64,000 nt of DNA from the NCBI GenBank assembly GCA_000697355.1, contig JNEN01001243.1, positions 62,001 to 126,000 on the forward strand, given 5' to 3'. The notes under the pieces were generated by a model. That model ran no database searches. It had not been told where the DNA came from and worked only from the letters and a program-made list of their open reading frames with translations. Within the stretch, counting starts at the first letter, position 1, and each line of letters opens with the position of its first letter. The translations under genes were made by a program, and so were the position numbers. The stretch is from Syncephalastrum monosporum B8922 (taxonomy: Eukaryota > Mucoromycota > Mucoromycetes > Mucorales > Syncephalastraceae). This document shows positions 6,270 to 51,525 of this stretch, in pieces.

Positions 6270-8315
6270 ACGGGAGCCAGTGATGGAGGCGCTTGTAAAC
6301 AATACCGAGGAAACATTTGTCATCCACAGAGGCAACATTGTAACCAAAACAGATTTTGTGCAACACATCTAGTGTTGAACAAAACTCATGGAGCTGAGCC
6401 GCAACAGCGCAAGGGACACCTCAGTAGCTTTGAAAGTGCATCACATCGGTTGGGATAAAGTGCATTTAACTTGTGCGTTCAAAAATGTGAGATATGATTA
6501 TCTTCAGCTACGATTCGACAGCCGAGCCGGTAAGGAACAAAATGTGCTCACATGCCGAGAAAATACTTCAAGTCGTATGTATGCAGTGAGGCGATATAGT
6601 TGGGTCCTCGAGCTACTCCCAGGGCGTGCGCTATCTCCTGCCAAGCGAGGGGACTGCATTTGGAAATAAACAGTTCAAAATATCGAGTCTGTCAAACGGG
6701 ATTGTTACCTTCTAGATTCTGTACTATTTCTGATCCAGTATGTGCTCGGCAGCATGCCGATTTGTAAGCCTTGTGTGCATGATGAGAGCTATACCGACCC
6801 TTCTATTTGTAAGCATACCTAATACGGCTAGTTATTCATCTTCACTCCTTTTGTATGTCATTTGAGAGTCTGTTTAGCATACATTACTTTGGGGAAAGAT
6901 TGGGCTTACCCAACTTCTTTTTTTTATATGCATTGTACACCATTGTATGCAGTTTATCCAGGAGCAGCGCGTTACCATAACATGCACAATGTGCATCTTT
7001 ATCGTATCATGCTACTTCACTTGTTTCAAAGCTTATTGAGGCTCCATAGCGATGACAGATCAGCATAGAGGCTGGGTTCATGTCTGCGATGATCTGCCCC
7101 GCCATTGTCTCGTTACTGGTGCGCGCGGCGATATAAACAGTGTAACGTCACGGCGGATCATCGGTTGTAGTTTTCCCGTTTCCGCACTTGTGTCGCGTCA
7201 GGCCAAGAAGCACCAACAACCAATATAAAGTGCCCTTTTTAAATTTAAGAGAAGTGATACGGCCAGAAACAGATGTATTTTCTATTATTCTTTTATCGCA
7301 TTTCGTTTCATGTCATCTTTCCTTGTAATATAAAGCCTCTTGAAGAGTACCAGATGGCGGTATTTAAATTTTCGTTATGCAGTTCTCTGGACGGTTACGG
7401 CACACTTCCATTCTTCGAAATAAAAAGTATTTCTATGTGATGTAAAGGAAGCGCTTTGAGCGAGGTTATACAGCTGCTGTACAATACTGTCATCAAAAAT
7501 TACCCTGCTTCGCTGGACGTAAGATGATAACGGTGCATATTTTACCATTGCCATCATCCCAACCTATTATTCTTCTCACTTACTGCCAATATTCAGTACT
7601 GTCAGCATGATGTTTTATAGTAAGCTTTTGAATTGTTTTATTCTATCCAATATCTATGTTTCTCCTGTATTTCGTGTACATCGTCTTTTTCTTTATCGAT
7701 GCGTCTGTAAATTGATCGAAGCAAATTATCTTCTTAATCCATGGCTCTTCCTTCCGCTAAAGCCAAAGCTCAGTCAGAGGTCTAAGCATGATGACATTAT
7801 GCCATTCTACAAGAAGCAAGTTGTCATCTTTCCATCACTCAATCGGCTCCTAAGACAATAATATATAACTTTATGGGATATTGTGCCTTATTATGAAGTA
7901 CCGCCGAGATCTAATCCGGTGTGTTTGATATGCAATGTAGGTGAATATTTCCATTTGATAAGTATTGATACTGGAGCCACTAACTCAGAGCTTTGTACCA
8001 CGTGGAGTATGTCAAATTACCTGGTACTGAATAGAGATGTGGAAGCCGAAATAGATTCTTCCAGTAGATTCTCGAATGCAGCAGAGCAGCAGAATATGCG
8101 AAGTACAGCAGCACAGGTAAACTGATGCTATTGTACTTCCGACAACGTACGGGCCTTGCTCTATCAGTCTTTTTGTCATATGTTTGTCTACCACACTTAC
8201 TGTATAAAGTAAATTAGAACCACGCCTGGCATTCGTAGGCTAGTTATAGCATACTCCATCAGTGATATTCATATGACCGCTTTATTACTATTAAACTACA
8301 AGTATTAAAAATGTA
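6270..8315. other. Intergenic, AT-rich, no gene seen
   Basis: Two kilobases separate the transporter pair from the 3' end of the XPG-Fanzor pseudogene. The frames present are short, mostly lack a favourable ATG context and resemble nothing known. If the pseudogene belonged to a mobile element, one boundary should lie near 8300, but no terminal inverted repeat was found. Confidence 0.4.
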
Positions 8316-8352
8316 AGGGCCTTTCGGCCCTAACCACCCTTTCTCGGGGGTT
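8316..8352 (-). ncRNA. Paired hairpins at the Fanzor 3' end, candidate guide-RNA scaffold remnant
   Basis: Two adjacent hairpins can be read on the minus strand immediately after, and overlapping, the stop codon at 8353-8351. The first (8352-8332) pairs AACC with GGTT and CCC with GGG around a GAGAAA loop, with one bulged base. The second (8331-8316) is a perfect six-base-pair stem, AGGGCC/GGCCCU, closed by a GAAA tetraloop. In TnpB and Fanzor loci the guide RNA usually spans the 3' end of the nuclease gene and the element end, so the position fits. The structures alone could also be a terminator-like or chance feature. Confidence 0.35.
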
Positions 8353-11300
8353 AACTGCGGGTACGCTTTTCTTTCGAGGAAGAACTTTGCGCGGCTGGTC
8401 GCTTCTTCTTTTGCGTGGCTTTGAGGGCCCTTGCTGGGGAAATGAAGGGGGTGGGGCGCTGCTTGTATGTAATCATGCTTTTCAGGATATGCGCAATATT
8501 GTGAGCAGCCATACCGTCACGGTGGAAACATGATTAGCACGACGTGCAGCGCTTAAGACGTAATATTTTTTTTGGGCGTCTCCGGCCCTTGCCAGGTATT
8601 CGGTCTGCGCAAATGCACCCTTTTGTACGCAGTCAGGGCATGCTTGGCTTGTAAAATACTCGTCGACACGGACGAGAAGATGGCCCGCTTCTTTGATTTC
8701 CTTGCCAAGACATCCAGAAATCTAGCATCCATGGATGGCTGTCGGCCTTTTGCCCTGTGGTTGGTACATCCGTCCATGCCAAGACCCACCAGTAGCTTTG
8801 GGTCTGTTTTGCTGCTGTCTGGGTGCGCAGAACTGAGGACAAGATTTGCCAGGCGGTCAAGAGCTGATCGGATGGAGCGAGACACACCCCATGACTTCCT
8901 TTTCACGACGTTGCTGTTGTAGAAAGATCGTAGGGACGTCTGCACGCCTCCGGTCTGCAGCGCTCGTATGTACGGGAGGCATTCGCCGGCACGTCCGCTC
9001 TGCTTGATGCCCTCCTCTGTGAGGTTGCGCTCCATTTCGTATATGCCCCTGCGGTCTTTGCGCTGTTCAAGCCAGCTTGCAATTTTGCGGTTCTCGCCAT
9101 ACGCTTCTCTGCGGCGAAACCAGAATTGTTGACCTTGACTCCACAACTTGGTATGGGCGGGCATTGCAAACGTGGCAGCAGGGCACACTTCTCCGAGGTC
9201 AACACCGATCACGTCCGTGATACTCTGCACGCTTTCAGCAGTGCTATTCCGTATAAACGACCCTATCTCCGGGAGATGCTTCTGCCATTGTTCTTCTGCT
9301 GCAGGTTTGAGCCAGTTGACGAAAGAAATCATCAATCTAACGCCATCCGTCCTGAAAGACGAGCCGATAGTGAACACAGGGTGCTCTGTGTCTGCGATCG
9401 TTTTGCGCAGCTTCCTGTGGTAGGCCCGCTTTTGCAGGGTGATCAAGCCTCGTCGTTCACTGGCCATGGTCGTAATATCCAAGGCAAACTGAATAGGGCT
9501 CTATAATTCACATAGTGAGCGAATAGTATATAGTTAACGACAGTATGGGACCTGCAACTACCTTGTTTTCCGTTCCTTGGCGATACGCTTGATAATCGTG
9601 CAAAACACTATTAGCAGAATCATTGTCGCCGCAGAATGTGCCGATATGCCGTAACATAACATCAAAGCACGTATCCGAAAAAAGGATAGAGACATCCTTG
9701 GGCTTCGTAGCGGGTGACACCGGAAAAGAGAGCGAGGAAGAACTCGGGGCAGTATTGACCATGAATAAAGTCAGCGCCAGCAAATGATGCGCGTCGATCG
9801 GCTTGGTCCGCTTGGTCTGTGCCTGGGAGGCAGCTGATTTGCCATTCGCAGCGGGCCGCTTGATGCCCAGCGCATCGTAGATATCCATCTCGTCTGCAAC
9901 TGCCTTTGTCTTTCCTTTCTGATTGCGAGCAACAATACGTACACCGCATGAGGTCTCTAAGGCTGTTCTTTGGTGTTGCACAAAGTCGAGAATCTCCCGT
10001 CGCGCGCGGCTTCTTGTTCCCAGCGTTTTCACCTTTTCGTCAACCCGTAATAATGATTCTACGTTGGCGGTCAACTCGCTGGAACCATCTATAGGTATCC
10101 GATATATGCAGGCGGTCATGTATTCTCCCATTGCACTATCCTGTGGCCATCCGGTGGGCGCGATCGCTTTCCTCGTGAGAGCTTTTTTGATATCATCGAT
10201 AGAGCTGGCATGTCGTAGGCGACGAGCAAAGGCGGTAATGGACTTGATAATCTGCGCATCAAGTTGAGGGTATCTGCGCTTGACATCAGCAAGAACAGCA
10301 GAATTGTCAAATGGGGTCCTGCGAATCAGGTCGTGCAACAGGACAGGAAAAGAATCATCCTTTGGCCATCCATCGGGAGTTCCGGCCATGTCCGCCAATA
10401 CAGCAGAATAGTACTCACTCGAGCGTGGTACAAAATTATGCATGATGCTGCTGCGGAATGCGCTATCAAGTTCTCGCGAAAGTGTTTCAATAAGAGTCCT
10501 GCGGCTGGTCGAGGACGGGATTTTAGGGGCTTCTTCCCAATGGCCATGATACCCTTGCCACCAAGTTTGTCGCGCCGCCAGTAAGATATTGCGGAGGGGC
10601 GGGTTAGGTGACATCATGCCTGCAAGTGATCGGATGGCTGTGTCTCGCGGATAGGCCATTAAAACATTTGGATTGACAATCATAGCTGCTGCATCTAAAG
10701 CAGGGGTAACTGTCGAGTATACGCTCTCGGGTAAATCATTCAGATTTGCTGTGCGGGTGTCTTCATGGTTTGTCGCCATAAAAAGAATCCACGTCCACGT
10801 CTTTTGGCCACAAGAAACTGACGAATCCGACTGCCCAGCTATTGTAAATCCTTCCCACACTTGCACTGAAAGTCTGTTGGATGCCCTTGCACAGCGTGTC
10901 GACTGGAAAAAGTTCTTGTAAATATGTCGCTTTGCCTCGAGAGTATAGTCGCTACTCGTGGTCACCGAATGCAGCGCGATACGAGCCATTTGCAGTGCAG
11001 TGCTTCGAAGGACGTTGGCTACATCCACCTCTCCTTGTATGGCAGACGTGATGGCTCTTGCCTGGGAAATTGCAAGGTCTGCATCCTCAGGATGACGTTT
11101 GTACGCGGCAGAAAGAACCGACGAAGCGAGACCGGCTGTCCAGGTACTCGTGGCACGCGACATGGGATGGACCGTCTCGAGCTCTCCGTCAGGCCCAAGG
11201 GGAAGGGTTTTCGATTTGCTCTTGTAATTGCGCGGTTTGGCGACGTTTGGGTCATCCGGCGTATTGAGACTTCGGCTGGAACTGCCGCGCTCACGTTTGC

Positions 11301-12920
11301 TTTGGGTGGGTTTTTTCTTGACAGGCTCGGTCTCTTCTTCTTGCGTGAAGGCTTTCGGTATCAAACAAGTCGCAACTGGCGTGTATCGTGACCCTTGTTT
11401 CTGAGGACCGGGAGGGACTATTGAAATTTGGTGTCAGTTTACGCTGCATACAGTAATAAACCAAATATATTGTTTACCATTTTTACGTATGACAGGTGCA
11501 TACATTCGGTCAGATTCGGTCAGAAAGACTGCAGTCGACTTTAACAGATATTGTTGCCACAAATGAAGGTTCTTGCAAAGCGTGTCGAAGAACTCGCAGT
11601 CGACAGAACTGTAGTAGTGCTGTGACATAGCGGATTTTCTCAAACTCGTACACACGAGAGATCATCTCCAAAAGCTGCAAGAAAAGCATATGGATTCGTC
11701 AACGCACTGCTTTTTCCAGTAACATATGTACTGACCTTTTCCATAAGAAGATCCGCCGTCGTATCTTGACGAGAAATGTCCACTTGCTTTACCATAGTGC
11801 AAAGACTTTTGAAGCCAACACCTCTTGGGTTATTTGCATAGTCGTTCCCGGCCAAGGCTGCTACGACGGCCAACCTCATTTCGGCCTGGAAGTAAAGTCG
11901 TTATACGTGACGAATATGGTACCGTCATATCATAAACGTACATTTTTAAAACCTGTTCCTTCTTCGTCTGTCAAGCCAAGTTTCGTCAGCAGGCGCCTTT
12001 TAGTCGTTGTCCTCGACGGCAGATTGGGCTCTTCCCACTTGATGTTCAGAATCCGCTAAAGTGATTATAAAGTGTCAGACGTTTTTATATGGTCCCGTGC
12101 AGAATATGTACCATGCAATCCAGTGCTCCTCCGTAACAGAAAAGATCGCCATCGCGTGATAGGATTGCTGCGTTGCCGGCCCAGATATCTGCCATGTATA
12201 CTACTTGTGCATCGGCCTCTCGGTCCGCCACTAGAAAAGACGACGGCTCCAGGTTATTCACATCGTGTACGTGAAACTCGTGCTGTGGCAACATCTAGAG
12301 AGGGAAAAAGGATGGAATAAAGATGCTGAGCTAACGAACAAAGTCTAATATATATGTGTCGTACCTGGAATATCAGTTCTTTGATGGTCCTCGTGAACCG
12401 AGCGTATGCAGGTGCATGGGATAGAACGCGGTGGAGAGCGCGACGCTTGCGATGTGAATCCTTTGCTGCATTGAGTGCTTGGTTGGCTCTTGCTGCTCGT
12501 TGAGCGCTTGTGACCCTCTTTGGTCCAAAGTCATTCTGGCTATCGAACACAAGACATGCCTTGCGAGTGGGAGACAGTAGCCGATGGCAGTGCTGTTTCA
12601 GCTCGACAACAAACTTCGCCACCGCTTGCGCCAAATTTGCTTCCAGTTCGGCCAGAGGCGCGCCTACCACATCAACACCTGTTGAAATTATTTAGCAGGA
12701 TTGTACGGTGTATGAGATTCATCCACAAACCTTTCTTAGCTTTGAGGTCATATATGAGCAAGCTTGGACCGATGATGGCTTGTAGGAGGGTAAAGAACAT
12801 GCAGCATGCGTCTATAAAGATCATGTCCACCTTTGCGGTGTCCATGTGTTGGATGAGAGGAACACTTTCGTCGTAGGCTTCAGCTGCTTTTGCGTGATGG
12901 TGGAGACCTTTGATGCCCAT
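8351..12920 (-). pseudogene. Decayed composite nuclease: XPG/FEN1-like N-terminus fused to Fanzor/TnpB-like RuvC domain
   Basis: Eight exons read as one gene: 12920-12731, 12678-12365, 12294-12112, 12055-11942, 11885-11736, 11674-11478, 11417-9562 and 9500-8351. Exons 1-5 encode an XPG/FEN1-type nuclease: MGIKGLHHHAKAA start, VDMIFIDAC, the XPG-I motif ADREADAQVVYMA with RDGDLF, and ALAGNDYANNPRGVG for the helix-hairpin region. Exon 7 encodes about 620 residues of no recognised family. Exon 8 reads as a Fanzor/TnpB nuclease: IGVDLGEVCPA (RuvC-I aspartate), VDEYFTSQACPDC (acidic residue and first zinc pair) and HRDGMAAHNIA (second zinc pair and RuvC-III aspartate). Junctions between exons 6-7 and 7-8 keep frame. 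Lesions seen: a frame change in exon 6 (about 11570-11640), one near 8690, a lost base in the A-run at 8566-8573, and a TAA at 8536-8534 inside the zinc ribbon. It may instead be two adjacent genes; an unrecognised intron could explain the exon 6 shift. Confidence 0.65.
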
Positions 12921-14486
12921 AAGGTATGTTATGTGCGGAAGAGGAGCGTGCGCCGTTTGCAAGAATGAAACCACCTTATCGCGCTTCCGAGGTAAAAGTC
13001 GAATTCGACAAAATAAGGCGCCTAGTTGCCATGGACACCCGTCGCGCTCCGAGCATCATCGCTATATGCACATGCGGTATCTTTATTATTCGAGTGACAT
13101 CTGGAAGCAGATCAGTGATAGCTTGTCGCTGCATATCCGAAACAGATGCTTTACAGTCTTTGTGCCTAAGCTTAGCTTGGATGGATCAAAGTTTTGTATG
13201 ATATGCCACCTAAAGCAACAGTATTTTTCTCGAGTTATGGACTGATGGATTAGAAACACGAATCAGTTGCATACTAGCAGTCATTTACAGACTTTATTTC
13301 ATTGTAATTTTCTGATAGCAGGAATCGTACATAATAGCATTCAAGTCTTGATTTAGCGGAAATATTGACATTCACGGACACCTAATGCTCTCATATTTGA
13401 ATATGAGAAAACGCAATGTGTCTTATTATTCAAAGGGTCGCGCGATTATTCGGATTCTTTGCTTTACCTGGCAAAATTTGTCTCACTTACTATGTGGGAA
13501 ATGACTCACATTGATCTCGTAATCATTCAATGGACATATACGACATATCATCGACCAAGTAAACTTGAAATATAAATAGGGAAGTGTATTATGTCAATTA
13601 TGATGTAAATGGCTTGCTGGCTGCGAAGCGACAATGGACAACCTGGTTAAATAATATGGGATACGTCAAATCCAAAATCAGCATTGAAAATTCCAACCTC
13701 ACCATTATTTCACAGGTGATTAGCGAAACGGGGAGATACATTTTATGATGTGGAATGTGCGTTAGCTGTAGCGAACTGTTCGATCGATGACTGAGCTGGA
13801 AATTACAGCGGACGTCAGTGCACTTAGTTTAGCTTTCTACACTTTAGCTTCAGATGCTCCGAATGCGCTATGTCCCTTAGCTTTCTGGAAGTCTCTACAG
13901 TGAATACATCACTCAAAATAATGCGTGCTTATTTTTTTAACAGCTAGTACGGCTTCATACATCATACCATAATGGTTATTCGGCACGACTTTGCGCGTTG
14001 CTACCTCAAGATGAGTTGTTTATGTTTATTTCACACTGACATCCTGCAAAATTATCGGAGCATCGCCAGACATTGCCATCATTGTTTGTGCTTTGCTTCG
14101 TTGGACACAGGCAGTTTTGACAAGAAAGCACACACTCATCAGTTAAACAGCCGTGAGCTAACATGTTGTGTTTATCCTAAAAAGGTCGTTAACCTGTCGT
14201 GTAGAATTACTTTTAAAATAGGCAGAGACGATGCCGGCGTAAAGTATGTTTTCGGTACAAAACACTCGTTACTTGCCAGCTGATAATCTCCATCTGAGAA
14301 GGTTATCCAGCCGTCAATGGAAGCAATATCTAGACAGGAGTGATTAGGAGGAATAGATTGACACACATAATTGTACGGTGGGGTGCCCACAAAGCTTGCG
14401 GATGGAGCACAGACCATCAATAGCCAACCCCGCCGCCTGGCACCACAAAAAATTTATTTCGACTGTTTTCAGATCTCAAGTTTGAC
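12921..14486. other. Divergent intergenic region, no gene seen
   Basis: Lies between the start of the composite nuclease (minus) and TRM4 (plus), so it should hold both promoters. No coding exon, terminal repeat or RNA gene was recognised. It is AT-rich in its central part (13260-14450). Confidence 0.45.
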
Positions 14487-45972: not shown

Positions 45973-48828
45973 TTATTCTGGTCGGCCCCGCTGCGGCCGT
46001 TTATGCTGTTGAGGCGAATCATGCTGGATCACGTCAAACTCGTACTGATTTTCATCCTGGTTCGGTACGCCCGTGTATCCCCTGCTGCGCCGCTGAGTAT
46101 ACCGTTTAATGAGATAGACGCACCCGACTGCACCGACGAGGACCAGCAGGACTGCGACCACGCGCGCAAAGAAGCTGCGATGGTCATCCTGATGCTCTTC
46201 GATGGGCCAAGCAAAGCTTGGCGTTTTGCTCTCCGTCTCTGCGCTCGACTTTTCGTCTTGAGGCTTGCTATCTGACGCAGGGGAGGAAGGTGTTACTGTC
46301 TGCCCATCCAGCGAACCTGTCAGCTCAGCCAGAGGCGTCTCTTGAGCCAAATCAGACGGTGGAGGGAGCGGCTCTTCCGTTTCGTCGAGCATCGCCTCTT
46401 CGGGTGTCTGCTCCTCCTGCGGGGCAGATACGGGTATATGGATCGGCGTGCCCTCGAATCCGTCCGCCATTTCGCCCCAGAGCGTCAGCGTCCAATTGAT
46501 GAAATAGCCTGAGAATTGCGGATTCTTGGCGTCCACGACGCGGAGAGTCCAGTTCCCGACAGGATTCTCGCCCCTAGTGGACAGCAGGATCAGCGATTGA
46601 AGGCTACCCCATTTTCCTTTTCCTTTTTCTTTTGAGCTTACCAGTGCTTCACGCTCATGAACGTCCAATCCTTGAAGCCCTCCGTGCTAGTGTCAAATTT
46701 GCGCGGAGCTCCGAGCTGGCTCACGACCGCGCTGGGGCTCTCGAGGAGGGTCTCGAGATCGCCCCGCCGCCCATGCTCAATGTTCACCGTGGCTGTCACG
46801 TGCTCAAGGCGCCCCAGGCCCGCCGCGTCCAGCATGGCCTGCGTGACCATGATCGTATGGGTCAAGGCCTTGCTCTTGTCAAGCACAGTCTCTGTCGTCA
46901 GGTCCGGAATCGCCTGTTTTTCCTCGCCGTGGGAGCCAGCCAGTTGCAGGTAGGTCTGAGGCCGGACGCTTTGGAAGGTCTTGGCAGCTTCGACGATGGC
47001 GTACGCGTCGAGCTTGCCAAAGCCAAATTTGTGGTTATACATGCGCCCAGACGGTAGCGTGGCCCAATCGGTGTCCTCGATCGAGATGGGCAGGGCAGTT
47101 TCTACGCACAAGTACTGCATGTCGCGCCACGTCAGGTCGGGCCGGACAGAGAGCACGAGGGCAAAAACACCAGCGGCGAGCGGCGCAGCGGCCGACGTGC
47201 CGCCGTGTCGCTCAGAACAGGTACGCTCGCCCACGTCGGTCGTGTACTAGACACTTTGCGTCAGGCAACCCACCCATTTCTCCTCTTTCCCTCACTTTTC
47301 CTTGTCTTCCAGATGCACTTACGATATGTCCACCGCTTCCACTCGAGTAGGTGACGACGAGCTGGGCCGAACACCGCTCGGCATAGTAAGGGTGGTTGCC
47401 CATCCTGTCAATCGCACCTACCGTGATGGTGTACATGCTGTTGGTATAGCCATCAAAGTTGCAATTGTCGTCGTTGGCGCCGCCGTTGCCCGATGCAAAG
47501 ACAAAGATAGTGCCAGTGCCGTTACGTCCGTTCTGAATGCCATTCTTGATCGCATCCAGGACAATTCCCTGCGGTGCTTCGGCGACTTCGCCCAAGTCGG
47601 GCGGGCCCCACGAGCACGAGTAGATGTGATTTTGCTGATAGGCGTAGTTGAGTGCTTCTGCCTCGTCGGCGTCTGTGATGTCTTCGGAGAGGATCCGAAT
47701 GCCTGAACGGTACGTCAGGTGAGACAGGGATTTTGCATGACATGGTACTTCTTCTCCTTTACCTGCGACCTTGGCCTCATAGGCGACACCAACACCACAC
47801 ACGTCATTGCGTGCTGCAGCAATTTCACCGGCGCAGCGCGTGCCGTGGTTGTCATCCTCAAGCTTGGGTTTGGGTAGTGCAGTCCGTGCATTGAAATCGT
47901 ACGAGCCTTCGGCAAACTATAAATATAAATAATCATCTTTTTGTGTTATCCCACGCGCCAAAACAATTTCAATTGACATGTGCGATACTTGCAAAGTTGT
48001 CAGCGAGGTCTTGGCTGTCCATGTCCAGCCCATCGTCCAGAATGGCGACGACGACGTTGCGGCCGGTGATGCCTTGGGCCCAGACATCGGTCACGTTGAT
48101 ATCGTTCCCGCGTTGCTTTGGATTGACCTGGACAACACATGAGTCTTCGAAGCGCATTGGGCGGGGTTCCCACGTTTCCATACCAGATGCCATTGGTACT
48201 CGAACCCGGGGTCCTGAATGCCAAGCACATCGCGCAAGGCTTGAAAGCCGCCAGGGCTGTCCATCAGCGCGGCTGCACCGATGAACTCCTGGTTCAACTG
48301 GGCCTCTTGCTGGATGTTCTCAAACAGAGGCGGCTCCAAGCTGGCTTCTTGTCGGCGCTCGACTGCAGGATTCGTGTGGGGCGTCGCGCGTTTATACAGC
48401 CTCCGCCTCGGTCCCTGCCGATCCAGCCGCTCTACCTTGGACAGCAAGCTCCGTTTTGCCTGGGACGACTGCCGGAGTGCATCGAAGCGCGCTTGGAGCT
48501 GCCTGACAGCCTCATCGTGGGTGTTCCCCTCGTCATCGTCGTCATCGTCGCTGCCATTGTCGTTGGAGCGACGTTGGAGCGATCGTGGAATGCTGATCCA
48601 GTAGTACTGAGACAGTTGGCCCACCGGACCCTCTAGCCGAGCGCCTAGTTCGGAAGCGACGGCCGCCACCGCGTCTCGGTCCCCGTCGGGCGTGTAGAGT
48701 GTGAAATAATGGCGTCGGGCATGATCGCGTGTCCAGCGCGGTGCGGCATCGGATGGCTGTACTGCTGGAAGGTGTGCAAGTGCAAGAGAAGCAAAGAGCA
48801 GGAGCAGCAGTGTCAGTAGAAACCGCAT
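45973..48828 (-). CDS. KEX2: Kexin, subtilisin-like proprotein convertase
   Basis: Golgi serine protease that cuts secretory proproteins after paired basic residues. Exons 48828-48184, 48127-47993, 47916-47763, 47702-47323, 47246-46642 and 46573-45973 give 839 residues. Order: signal peptide (MRFLLTLLLLLFASLALA), prodomain with an autocleavage candidate RRRLYKR near residue 155, and the S8 domain. Its catalytic triad is visible as VVAILDDGLD (Asp), DDNHGTRCAGEIAA (His) and HGGTSAAAPLAAGV (Ser); FVFASGNGG supplies the oxyanion asparagine. A P-domain follows (HVTATVNIEHGRRGDL, then GNWTLRVVD). An acidic Pro/Thr linker, one membrane helix (VVAVLLVLVGAVGCVYLI) and a basic cytosolic tail ending RPQRGRPE complete it. 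Intron 2 (47992-47917) begins with GC rather than GT; using it restores DNFFAEGSYDF against the yeast DNFCAEGSWDF. Confidence 0.95.
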
Positions 48829-49893
48829 ATATGAGTGTATGAGTGTATGAGTGTACGTGTATATCTGTGTGTAGGTCACAAAGGGAGTAAACACAAGAAG
48901 AAGAGAGAAGAGATGTCCTCTTTCGCTTCATTCACGCACTCTCTTTCTGTGAGTCTATCACGGCTCTCCCACCAAGGCAACCCCGACTTGACCTTGGTGA
49001 TTACCATATAGGGTAACCCTGCATTGGGACAACATATTTTCTGTCATCCATCAGCATTCGCTCTTGGGCAGACACGTTCTTTGAGATATAAGAACATGGG
49101 GTTCCGTAACTACGTAATTACATAAGCAGGACACTGGAAACCCGAATCAGTCCCCCGTCAGGGCGTCTATACAGTACAGTATATCGGACTCCTCTTGGTT
49201 CCAGGGACAGGCCCAGTTATATGAAGGAATCAAAAGAAAAGTGGATGGGAATAGGCAGCAGCAAACAGAATCCAGATGCAATAATCTCCTTGAGTGACCC
49301 GGTTTTGTTAATGATTGAACACTGTAGCTCTTCTACTATGAATGGAAAAAGAGCCGAACGCACCTATCAGGACATATTGCTAATATCCCTAAATATCTCA
49401 CGCTGAAGGTGGAAAAGCTCAAAGCAAGGGTGTTAATATCATGCCATCTTCCCGCACACGCGAAGCGTAACGAGGCTTAGGGACCTGGCCCATCAAGCGG
49501 TGTGGAACGGACCAGAGTAAGCGAATGTTGAGTGGAACCCATAGTCGAAGGCGAGGGGGATTATTCAGAGCCGTACAGTAATCAGGGTGTCACTCTTAGA
49601 CGAAGCGAAGCGAATTCACCGCCATGTATATAATAATATGTTCTGTAGGCTGTCCCCACCGGCGAATCCTACGCAGCCAGGCAAAATTTTCGCCGTCGGG
49701 CTATCAGGTCGTATATCTCAGTTTCACTCCTTTCTCGCTCTTTCTTTGCTATTCTTCCTGTCCGCTTCCTCTCTCTTCCTCTCTCTTCCTCTTTCTCCAT
49801 TTGTGTTTTCCTAGCATAGGTGGTCGGTGGCCGGGACAAGCCGACAACACCCTTCATAGGCATGCGTAACGCGCCAAATCTGGCCAACGCGCC

Positions 49894-49995
49894 ATGAGCG
49901 CGTATCGACGACCCCGGCTTCGGCCGCTTAGGTATGTAGAGAAATCGAAGTGTAGCCCACGAGAACTGATTTCGTTCCGAAATTGCGTAGGCTAG
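49894..49995 (+). repeat. Hairpin repeat, copy 1 (Helitron-3'-end-like)
   Basis: The last ~45 bp read CCACGAGAACTGATTTCG, then TTC, CGAAATT and finally CGTAGGCTAGTTAG. ATTTCG and CGAAAT form a perfect six-base-pair hairpin with a three-base loop. Eight bases later comes CTAG followed by T, the arrangement of a Helitron 3' terminus. The whole interval is also an open frame of 33 codons that ends in the tail SPRELISFRNCVG, shared with copy 2. Whether the conservation is at the DNA or protein level is unresolved. Confidence 0.5.
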
Positions 49996-50118
49996 TTAGG
50001 TGAATATGAATATACGAATGTATATATATATATATCTATATAATATATATCTATATAATAAAAAAAAAGAGTGCGTCTAACTCCGCTAACTCGACTTATA
50101 ACTAATTACGTAAGCAGG

Positions 50119-50137
50119 CCCGGGTTCAATTCCCGGG
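50119..50137 (+). other. tRNA-like T-arm (B-box-like) in a repeated segment
   Basis: CCCGGG TTCAATT CCCGGG forms a perfect stem with a seven-base loop that matches a tRNA T-arm and Pol III B-box. No matching acceptor stem lies upstream, so it is not an intact tRNA. The preceding TAATTACGTAAGCAGG (50103-50118) recurs with one change at 49115-49130, and CAGGGYGTCT follows in both. It may be a fragment of a tRNA-derived SINE. Confidence 0.3.
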
Positions 50138-50182
50138 CAGGGTGTCTGCCAAAGTGGATCACTTTGAGCTGTGAACGGTACC

Positions 50183-50409
50183 TGACGTCAATCTTCATCA
50201 AGGTATCTTACCCGTGTTCTTCGGTAAATGTGAACCGCGTGATGGTAAAGTAATCCAATGAATCCTCTGAAACGCGAAAGATACCTGACGTCAATACCTG
50301 TCAGGGACCATATCTTTGAGCTCTTTTTCCCCATTGGTAAAACGTGGATTGCGTGATAGCTTGGTTAGCCAATGGAACCTATGAAACTTGGAAAAAAAGC
50401 TCGACGTCA
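50183..50409 (+). promoter_or_regulatory. Three degenerate repeats with CRE-like (TGACGTCA) and CCAAT motifs
   Basis: TGACGTCAAT at 50183 and 50286 and CGACGTCAAT at 50402 start degenerate direct repeats of about 103 and 116 bp. Shared inner words are GCGTGAT, CCAATG and TGAAAC; units 2 and 3 also share CCTGTCAGG, TATCTTT and CCATTGG. TGACGTCA is the consensus of ATF/CREB-type bZIP factors and CCAAT is the NF-Y/Hap site. A TATA-like CATAAAAGG near 50503 lies downstream, so the array may drive a plus-strand transcript. Confidence 0.5.
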
Positions 50410-51036
50410 ATCCCTGTCAGGTCCTTATCTTTTACTTCTCCTTTCCCATTGGCGCAGCCGGCCCGTGTTCTTGCATGAATATCGATTGACACGCGCTCTT
50501 TCTCATAAAAGGTCTTTTGTTTTCTCTCACGTCTACTTTTCTTCTTCTTCTTCTTTACCCTGGTCAAGTCATCCTGCTGGCAAGTACATACGAAAGGATT
50601 CTGATTACAAGTATAAACTAATAAGAAGTGCTACATAGACCACTGCATTCCCATAAGACCCTCTGCCACCGGTTGCCCGCCCCCTACTGCACCGGTGTGC
50701 ATGATAGTAAGTTCTCGCGTCAATAGCACATGGTCTTGAACACCATTAACCTCCTTCTGAATGTATACTTAGCTTGCCGTCTTCTTGCTCGCCTCTCCTC
50801 CTGTCTTCTCTTCCGCTCGCACCTCTTCCACCTCCTTTCCGCTTGCTGTCCTCCCATCAGAGGTTTTTTTTCCGCTTTTTCCTCTGCCCGTAAGTGAAAC
50901 AGATTCAGGTCTATGCAATGAATATGAGACATTAACGCACGTTTCAGTTCCGCTCCTTTCTCGCGTCCCCTTTGCGTCTCTTCCTCTCCGCCTCCTCTGC
51001 CTTTCTTCTTTCCCGCTTGCGACCCACTAGCCGGCG

Positions 51037-51278
51037 ATGGTGGCCACCGTTGAAAACAACTCCATAGACATCGCCTCTGCGCCAAATGTCTGCTCCCCGC
51101 CCACCGGTAAGTGTTTTGCAACTGGGTAATGCGCCACTGTGACTCAAACGTGTATTCAGCTCAGGTGAGGCGGCGGCCGCGCGCCGTGAGCGCGCATCAA
51201 CGACCCCACGCCGGTATGTATATTAAAATGAAGGATAGTCCACGAGAACTGATTTCGGAACGAAATTTCGTAGGCTAG
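51037..51278 (+). CDS. Possible 62-residue two-exon ORF ending in the hairpin repeat
   Basis: ATG at 51037, exon 51037-51106, a clean GTAAGT...TTCAG intron, and exon 51160-51278 give 62 residues in one frame. The product starts MVATVENNSIDIASAPNVC and ends SPRELISERNFVG. The last part parallels the ORF at 49894-49995. It lies downstream of a CT-rich leader and the CRE-like repeats. There are no known domains, and the conserved tail coincides with the hairpin repeat, so this could be accidental coding across a mobile-element end. Confidence 0.3.
51180..51278 (+). repeat. Hairpin repeat, copy 2 (Helitron-3'-end-like)
   Basis: Matches copy 1 in GAGCGCG...ACGACCCC and, near-identically, in CCACGAGAACTGATTTCG ... 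CGAAATT.CGTAGGCTAGTTAG. The hairpin loop is GAA here and TTC in copy 1. ATTTCG-GAA-CGAAAT is the exact reverse complement of ATTTCG-TTC-CGAAAT, so the hairpin is inverted between otherwise co-oriented copies. Identity stops just after CTAGTTAG. Confidence 0.55.
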
Positions 51279-51525
51279 TTAGCTAGAAGAATTTTTACTG
51301 GCTGTTGATCTGTAGAATACATTACATATACGGAAAAGCAAAAGAAGAGGAGGAGACAGGAAACGGAAAAAAGAGAAACTGAACAGTTGGACGGCAAGCA
51401 TGTCTACGCAGTGACGCAAAGAGACAAGAGAAGAAGAGAGAGAAGAAGAAGGGAGAACGAGACAGAGAACGCGAGAGAAAGTAAATATCAGTGGTGGCAG
51501 AAGGGTATAAATAAAGCGGTTAAGT

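Follow-up and report, generated by a model that had tools for sequence, protein, structure and literature searches.

A decayed mobile element of Syncephalastrum monosporum with a gene predicted to join an XPG/FEN1-type nuclease to a Fanzor-like RuvC nuclease

Fanzors, the eukaryotic homologues of TnpB, are compact, RNA-guided, Cas12-like enzymes with a single nuclease. TnpB acts as the RuvC-TNB effector of the IS200/IS605 and IS607 mobile elements, whose 3' ends encode its RNA. Sequences of the Fanzor/TnpB group have been described by the motif D-X(125,275)-[TS][TS]XX-[C4]-X(5,50)-RD (Bao and Jurka, PMC3627910), and Fanzors have as their fingerprint a DPG motif in RuvC-I together with a glutamate that precedes the zinc finger by six residues (PMC10711439). 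Here we analyse a stretch of 64,000 nucleotides from the mucoralean fungus Syncephalastrum monosporum B8922 (contig JNEN01001243.1, positions 62,001–126,000), which we refer to as the window. A preliminary description of this DNA, made from its letters alone, had proposed that an XPG/FEN1-like and a Fanzor/TnpB-like nuclease lie in one reading chain, derived from an ancestral protein of about 1450 residues. We consider it probable that the locus is a decayed fungal mobile element (8297–13588, minus strand) with a single recognised gene of eight exons, that this gene specified a protein of about 1400 residues with an XPG and a RuvC part, and that the element spread by guide-RNA-directed homing as set out below.

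The window gene runs from 12920 to 8351 on the minus strand, as do all its parts, and its seven predicted introns (52–70 nt) all have GT..AG ends. The motifs named in the preliminary description were recovered on this strand. Exon 1 (12731–12920) contains the start MGIKGL at 12920, the XPG N-region and the first acidic ligand, exon 2 (12365–12678) the VFD ligand and a basic stretch, exon 3 (12112–12294) the XPG I-region with ADREADAQ and RDGDLF, exon 4 (11942–12055) the rest of the I-region, and exon 5 (11736–11885) the ligand in ALAGNDYANN. These five exons form an unbroken frame of 317 residues. Exon 6 (11478–11674) links the XPG part to the central region. Behind intron 6 (11418–11477, 60 nt), which is the joint between the two, exon 7 (9562–11417, 618 whole codons) codes for a central region without a recognised domain; the long open exon reported earlier is indeed open for 641 codons (9511–11433). 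After intron 7 (9501–9561, 61 nt), exon 8 (8351–9500) carries RuvC-I (VDLGE in IGVDLGEVCPA), the RuvC-II glutamate with the TNB zinc finger (VDEYFTSQACPDC) and RuvC-III (HRDGMAAHNIA). Introns 6 and 7, both proposed before, show GT..AG ends, and the frames join across them. The description of one reading chain is confirmed, but in the window the chain is interrupted by three changes of frame, one in exon 6 at about 11.51 kb and two in exon 8 at about 8.70 and 8.53 kb. Because of these changes the window copy is a pseudogene, a decayed member of a repeat family, and the question of fusion has to be decided on its relatives.

We searched the assembly of this strain (27.5 Mb, 198 contigs) for such relatives. 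Including the window, there are at least 37 matches to the RuvC exon, at least 25 to the central exon, at least 8 to XPG exon 3 and at least 10 to XPG exon 2. XPG, central and RuvC parts occur in the same order and orientation at four loci: contigs C166 (the window), C164 (L009), C179 (L010) and C162 (L011). L009 is free of stop codons across eight exons, exon 6 included, with seven GT-AG introns of 46–74 nt. Its gene model encodes 1426 residues, beside the roughly 1450 predicted for the ancestor, and comprises an XPG/FEN1-type domain, a central region of 600 residues and a TnpB/Fanzor-like RuvC part with a TNB zinc finger. One intact protein covering all three parts, as sought by the preliminary description, therefore exists in the form of a gene model. 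Full-length L009 had no hit in the protein database at E ≤ 0.001 among 8000 candidates scored. In L010, introns 1–7 are GT-AG at matching places and the frame changes in exon 7; in L011 this is true of introns 1–5, and the copy is broken at several points. The copies on C173 and C176 comprise the 3' half only, being truncated by contig ends, and that on C16 is an internally deleted version. That a Fanzor-like element merely landed beside or into an XPG-like gene at a single place is very improbable: the broken copy in the window would, taken alone, leave room for this, but the same order recurs on C164, C179 and C162, with shared introns where these can be checked, and deletion copies carry pieces of both parts.

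Matches that reach the 5' start of exon 7 were found at five loci (the window, L009, L010, L011 and L018) among the at least 25 central-exon matches. All five have XPG-side exons directly upstream, in L018 only exons 5 and 6, so that the relatives are not invariably two separate genes, the outcome which the preliminary description had named as contrary to its proposal. Three further loci (L013, L030 and L029) have neither XPG exons nor the start of exon 7.

A different picture is given by automatic gene models of Syncephalastrum racemosum (P0003–P0006). They use the same intron 7 joint as the window, but start at an internal methionine of exon 7 (MSRATST) and omit the XPG part. Read literally, they describe two adjoining genes in one element, an XPG-like one (exons 1–6) and a Fanzor-like one starting in exon 7, with an accidental joint between them. 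We regard this arrangement as unlikely. The methionine of MSRATST is replaced by Leu in L009 and by Lys in P0007, a protein from another lineage, while the 84 residues preceding it are conserved in frame in L009, the window, L011 and P0007. The first methionine of exon 7 in L009 lies 136 residues into the exon, behind a conserved block, and translation of L009 must therefore start further upstream. Intron 6 has GT-AG ends at the same site in L009, L010 and the window, and P0007, which is 39% identical to residues 346–976 of L009, passes the joint of exons 6 and 7 without a stop codon. Of the named proteins found, those of S. racemosum come nearest, with 79–82% identity to exon 7, and P0007 shows 42%; in the zinc finger region, P0002 from S. 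racemosum is 78% identical to L009.

The three parts also diverged to a similar degree. When L009 is compared with the window, the proportion of non-synonymous differences (pN) is 0.376 in the XPG part, 0.391 in exon 7 and 0.438 in exon 8. The synonymous proportion (pS, 0.74–0.81) is saturated, and hence no ratio of the two rates (dN/dS) is given for this pair. On account of this parallel divergence at saturated synonymous sites, the fusion is old, and all three parts were kept under constraint over the same long time. Together, gene models and conservation show a real, old fusion in one gene.

The RuvC part shows features of the group to which it was assigned. L009 fits the Fanzor/TnpB motif with D1098, a spacing of 183, the cysteines CPHC...CRVC and five residues to RD; its parts fall in three different frames in the window. 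The RuvC-II glutamate is placed as in Fanzors, with six residues between E1279 and the first cysteine, C1286, in L009. The Pfam model Cas12f1-like_TNB matches L009 (E = 8e-8) and P0001 (E = 1.1e-9), both above its cut-off, and the window at 8482–8721 with E = 5e-5 and 23.8 bits against a cut-off of 26.3. A match to the NCBIfam model guided_TnpB (E = 4.3e-6, 26 bits) lies below the cut-off of 100. With a RuvC profile searched against PDB, Fanzor1 of Parasitella parasitica (PpFz1) was the better of two rows (E = 0.02), matching best over the stretch of the glutamate and zinc finger. P0001 alone gave four weak rows in PDB (E 0.045–2.8), PpFz1 being the third, and the RuvC exon as a single sequence gave nothing there at E ≤ 1. 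One scan of prokaryote genomes with P0001 yielded 29 pattern matches, none of which was confirmed; in viral contigs, none of the 28 pattern matches of the RuvC alignment A1 and none of the 234 of the central alignment A3 was confirmed.

The DPG of the fingerprint is absent, its place being taken by DCG in L009, DLG in the window and DFG in L013 and L011. Because the glutamate is positioned as in Fanzors but DPG is missing, we describe the RuvC part as Fanzor-like and do not file it as Fanzor1. The earlier label is supported by the motif and the relocated glutamate, but should be applied with caution. DPG is present in a canonical Fanzor1 of this genome (C154:562400–565000, L046 and L047), which reads VDEYFTSQVC where the window has VDEYFTSQAC. 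The core profile of the fused family scored below zero against this canonical protein, although the TNB domain, reached by only two of five rows, is perhaps unmodelled in it. TNB matches in the assembly number 34 at E ≤ 1, with the copies of the fused family included.

The fused protein thus shares with the Fanzor1 proteins PpFz1, SpuFz1 and GtFz1 the motif, the glutamate relocated to a position before the zinc finger, the location of the gene inside a mobile element, 3'-terminal hairpins and, for PpFz1, a weak profile match. It differs from them by the replacement of DPG, by the XPG nuclease at its N-terminus, by a core that has no significant profile match to the canonical Fanzor1 of its own genome, and by its length, 1426 residues as compared with 600–700 for most Fanzor1 proteins (PMC11423790). 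With TnpB of the IS200/IS605 and IS607 elements it has in common that it is a RuvC-TNB effector in a mobile element; unlike TnpB, its gene is eukaryotic, bears introns, is much larger and includes the XPG fusion. The central region of 600 residues would probably fill the REC/WED role. In Pfam, the sole row for exon 7 was a porin match below threshold (E = 0.044); the central region gave nothing in NCBIfam, and the central alignment A3 a single, unrelated row in PDB.

The N-terminal 325–400 residues can be assigned, from their sequence, to the structure-specific nucleases of XPG/FEN1/EXO1 type, a group with enzymes that cut flaps and bubbles. These residues have the start MG[IV]K, seven acidic ligands and GNDY, and EADAQ as in EXO1; they differ in being joined to a RuvC nuclease in a transposon and in having longer stretches between the N and I regions. 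The roles of the acidic ligand residues are known from the FEN1 literature. All seven are present in L009 and in the window, at positions matched by the host's own FEN1 and EXO1 in an alignment whose XPG row covers the I-region only. A profile made of two XPG sequences found Exonuclease 1 in the best four of nine PDB rows (E 0.048–0.11), with unrelated rows from 0.6, and the XPG part as a single sequence found nothing there at E ≤ 1. The Pfam model XPG_I matches the spliced window exons 1–5 (E = 1.7e-4, 22.3 bits), the frame of exon 3 alone (12085–12294, E = 4.9e-4) and L009 (E = 0.012, 16.5 bits), but all these matches lie below the curated cut-off of 24.9 bits. Separate FEN1-, EXO1- and XPG-type genes are present in the genome (five XPG_I matches; types named from the sequences).

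Within a single fused protein, the XPG part might serve other ends than cutting the target: it could be structural, process the guide RNA or act elsewhere, for instance when the element is excised. XPG activity is at this point a prediction, and another extra domain, FRI, in a mucoralean Fanzor1 binds cyclophilin (PMC11423790). We nevertheless hold a non-cutting XPG part to be doubtful, since two subfamilies with no more than 46% identity between their XPG parts have both retained the seven acidic ligands, and this retention points to catalysis.

The boundaries of the element, about 5.3 kb in length, are accurate to a few bases. Its right end (about 8297) is common to copies on C3, C179 (32527), C116 and C16 within a few bases, and the flanks beyond it differ; its left end (about 13588) is common to copies on C196 and C131. 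Between the left end and the gene, the 5' part (12921–13588, minus strand) is 98% and 89% identical to DNA in C196 and C131, respectively. In subfamily A, four copies have one shared right end and four different flanks. The element is thus mobile, as seen from different flanks at shared ends. Two internal-deletion derivatives (L012 and L019) retain XPG pieces together with the same right end; the two parts are therefore components of a single mobile unit. Inspection of the element's ends by eye revealed no clear inverted repeats or target duplications. Nor was a separate empty site found for the window copy, as the flank parts of the boundary queries matched only themselves.

Other features were noted in some copies. 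L011 is 86% identical to L009 in the DNA of the upstream region and the XPG exons and 68% in the next stretch, and the remainder cannot be aligned as DNA; apparently, the C-terminal module was exchanged between elements. The copies on C179 and C164 have about 2.6 kb upstream of the gene in common. An upstream open frame of 174 codons in the C179 copy may represent captured host DNA; C164 lacks about 350 bp of it. At L015:5916–6404, an open frame that resembles the end of a DDE transposase follows the end of exon 7.

Between the stop codon and the right end (8297–8350, minus strand) lie two conserved hairpins, a candidate scaffold of a guide RNA. For family versions 60 and 61 nt long, the folding energies are −23.3 and −24.1 kcal/mol, with z values of −3.5 and −2.5; 0 of 200 and 3 of 200 shuffled sequences, respectively, fold as well. 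On 11 aligned copies, 79.8% of the cells are paired, a value that 2 of 500 shuffles attain, and 3 of 500 attain the covariation score; all slid controls were lower in both pairing and covariation. The number of pair types is reached by 358 of 500 shuffles. The structure was drawn from two of the families counted, which favours that structure in these comparisons. The scaffold of SpuFz1 has two stems (PMC10432273), and in three Fanzor1 guide RNAs stem-loop 1 is reported to have seven pairs (PMC11423790). The first stem found here comprises seven pairs in the counted structure and the two centroids but eight in both minimum-energy structures, and the match is for this reason loose. A search of Rfam with the region 7.5–14.5 kb gave nothing. 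The hairpins resemble what a Fanzor guide RNA would form, a likeness that is suggestive only.

These features can be combined into a proposed mechanism of homing. The 3' end of the element is most likely transcribed into a guide RNA, whose two hairpins would bind the RuvC/TNB part and whose guide would come from the flanking DNA outside the element, below 8297. The complex would open an R-loop at a matching empty site, where the RuvC domain would cut. The tethered XPG domain would cut the junctions between single- and double-stranded DNA of the R-loop or trim flaps, and repair would copy the element into the break. For the fused protein itself we infer RNA guidance and double cutting. More specifically, and only tentatively, we propose a natural RNA-guided enzyme with two different active sites in a single chain, in which the DPG-less Fanzor-like RuvC domain opens and cuts the guided site and the tethered XPG/FEN1 domain cuts the R-loop junction or trims flaps, giving a defined break or overhang that favours copying of the transposon.

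Several observations, in addition to the missing DPG, the truncated S. racemosum models and the low XPG_I scores, weigh against this proposal. Splicing and the joint protein are taken from gene models, not from transcripts or protein. L009, the sole copy found to be open throughout, lacks the usual stop codon of the family, which is kept in L010, C173, C176 and P0001, and continues for 29 more codons, to beyond the right end of the element. Constraint in recent copies is weak, with dN/dS of 0.31–1.06 in eight comparisons of L009 with L010, L014, L016 and L017; for comparison, the ratio is 0.26 in the XPG exons of L011 and 0.37 in a portion of L018 exon 7. Pfam reported no model of the XPG N-region, and searching the genome with PF00867 yielded five genes, none of them a fused copy, which means that the fused XPG domains are too divergent for that search. 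Fold predictions were of low confidence, with a predicted local distance difference test score (pLDDT) of 37 for the central region (P0003, 724 residues) and of 41 for RuvC (P0001, 336 residues). Only 3 of 13 hairpin pairs show changes on both sides, a number attained by 128 of 500 shuffles, and decay or truncation affects several of the 11 copies in the hairpin alignment. Finally, no transposase or second gene was recognised in the element, where no search by transposase family was made.

Elsewhere in the window, repeated DNA at 49444–51282 is 68–84% identical to stretches in C13 (L016) and C177 (L020) and is probably another mobile element. On the minus strand, 45976–48927 contains open frames with NHGTRCAGEIAAARN that resemble a subtilisin-type protease. 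In the segment 36001–42000, C is much more frequent than G, unlike in the remainder of the window, with a skew of −0.17 to −0.27. A tRNA scan of the window found none.

In the literature searched, mostly without subscription papers, we found no report of a Fanzor joined to an XPG or PIN domain. The one paper found to name Fanzor together with FEN1 concerns gene integration with large cargo, and the one found to name TnpB together with XPG concerns Cas12a; the titles and abstract openings listed, and excerpts of Fanzor papers looked up by term, do not mention such a fusion. If the proposal is true, eukaryotic transposons have combined guided targeting with structure-specific processing. Such a lineage, with the full catalytic set of XPG/FEN1 residues retained in one chain over a long divergence, would offer a direct test of the step from a guided cut to spread of the element, as well as a natural design that is new among editing enzymes. 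The lack of DPG would extend the variety of Fanzor-like proteins known from eukaryotes.

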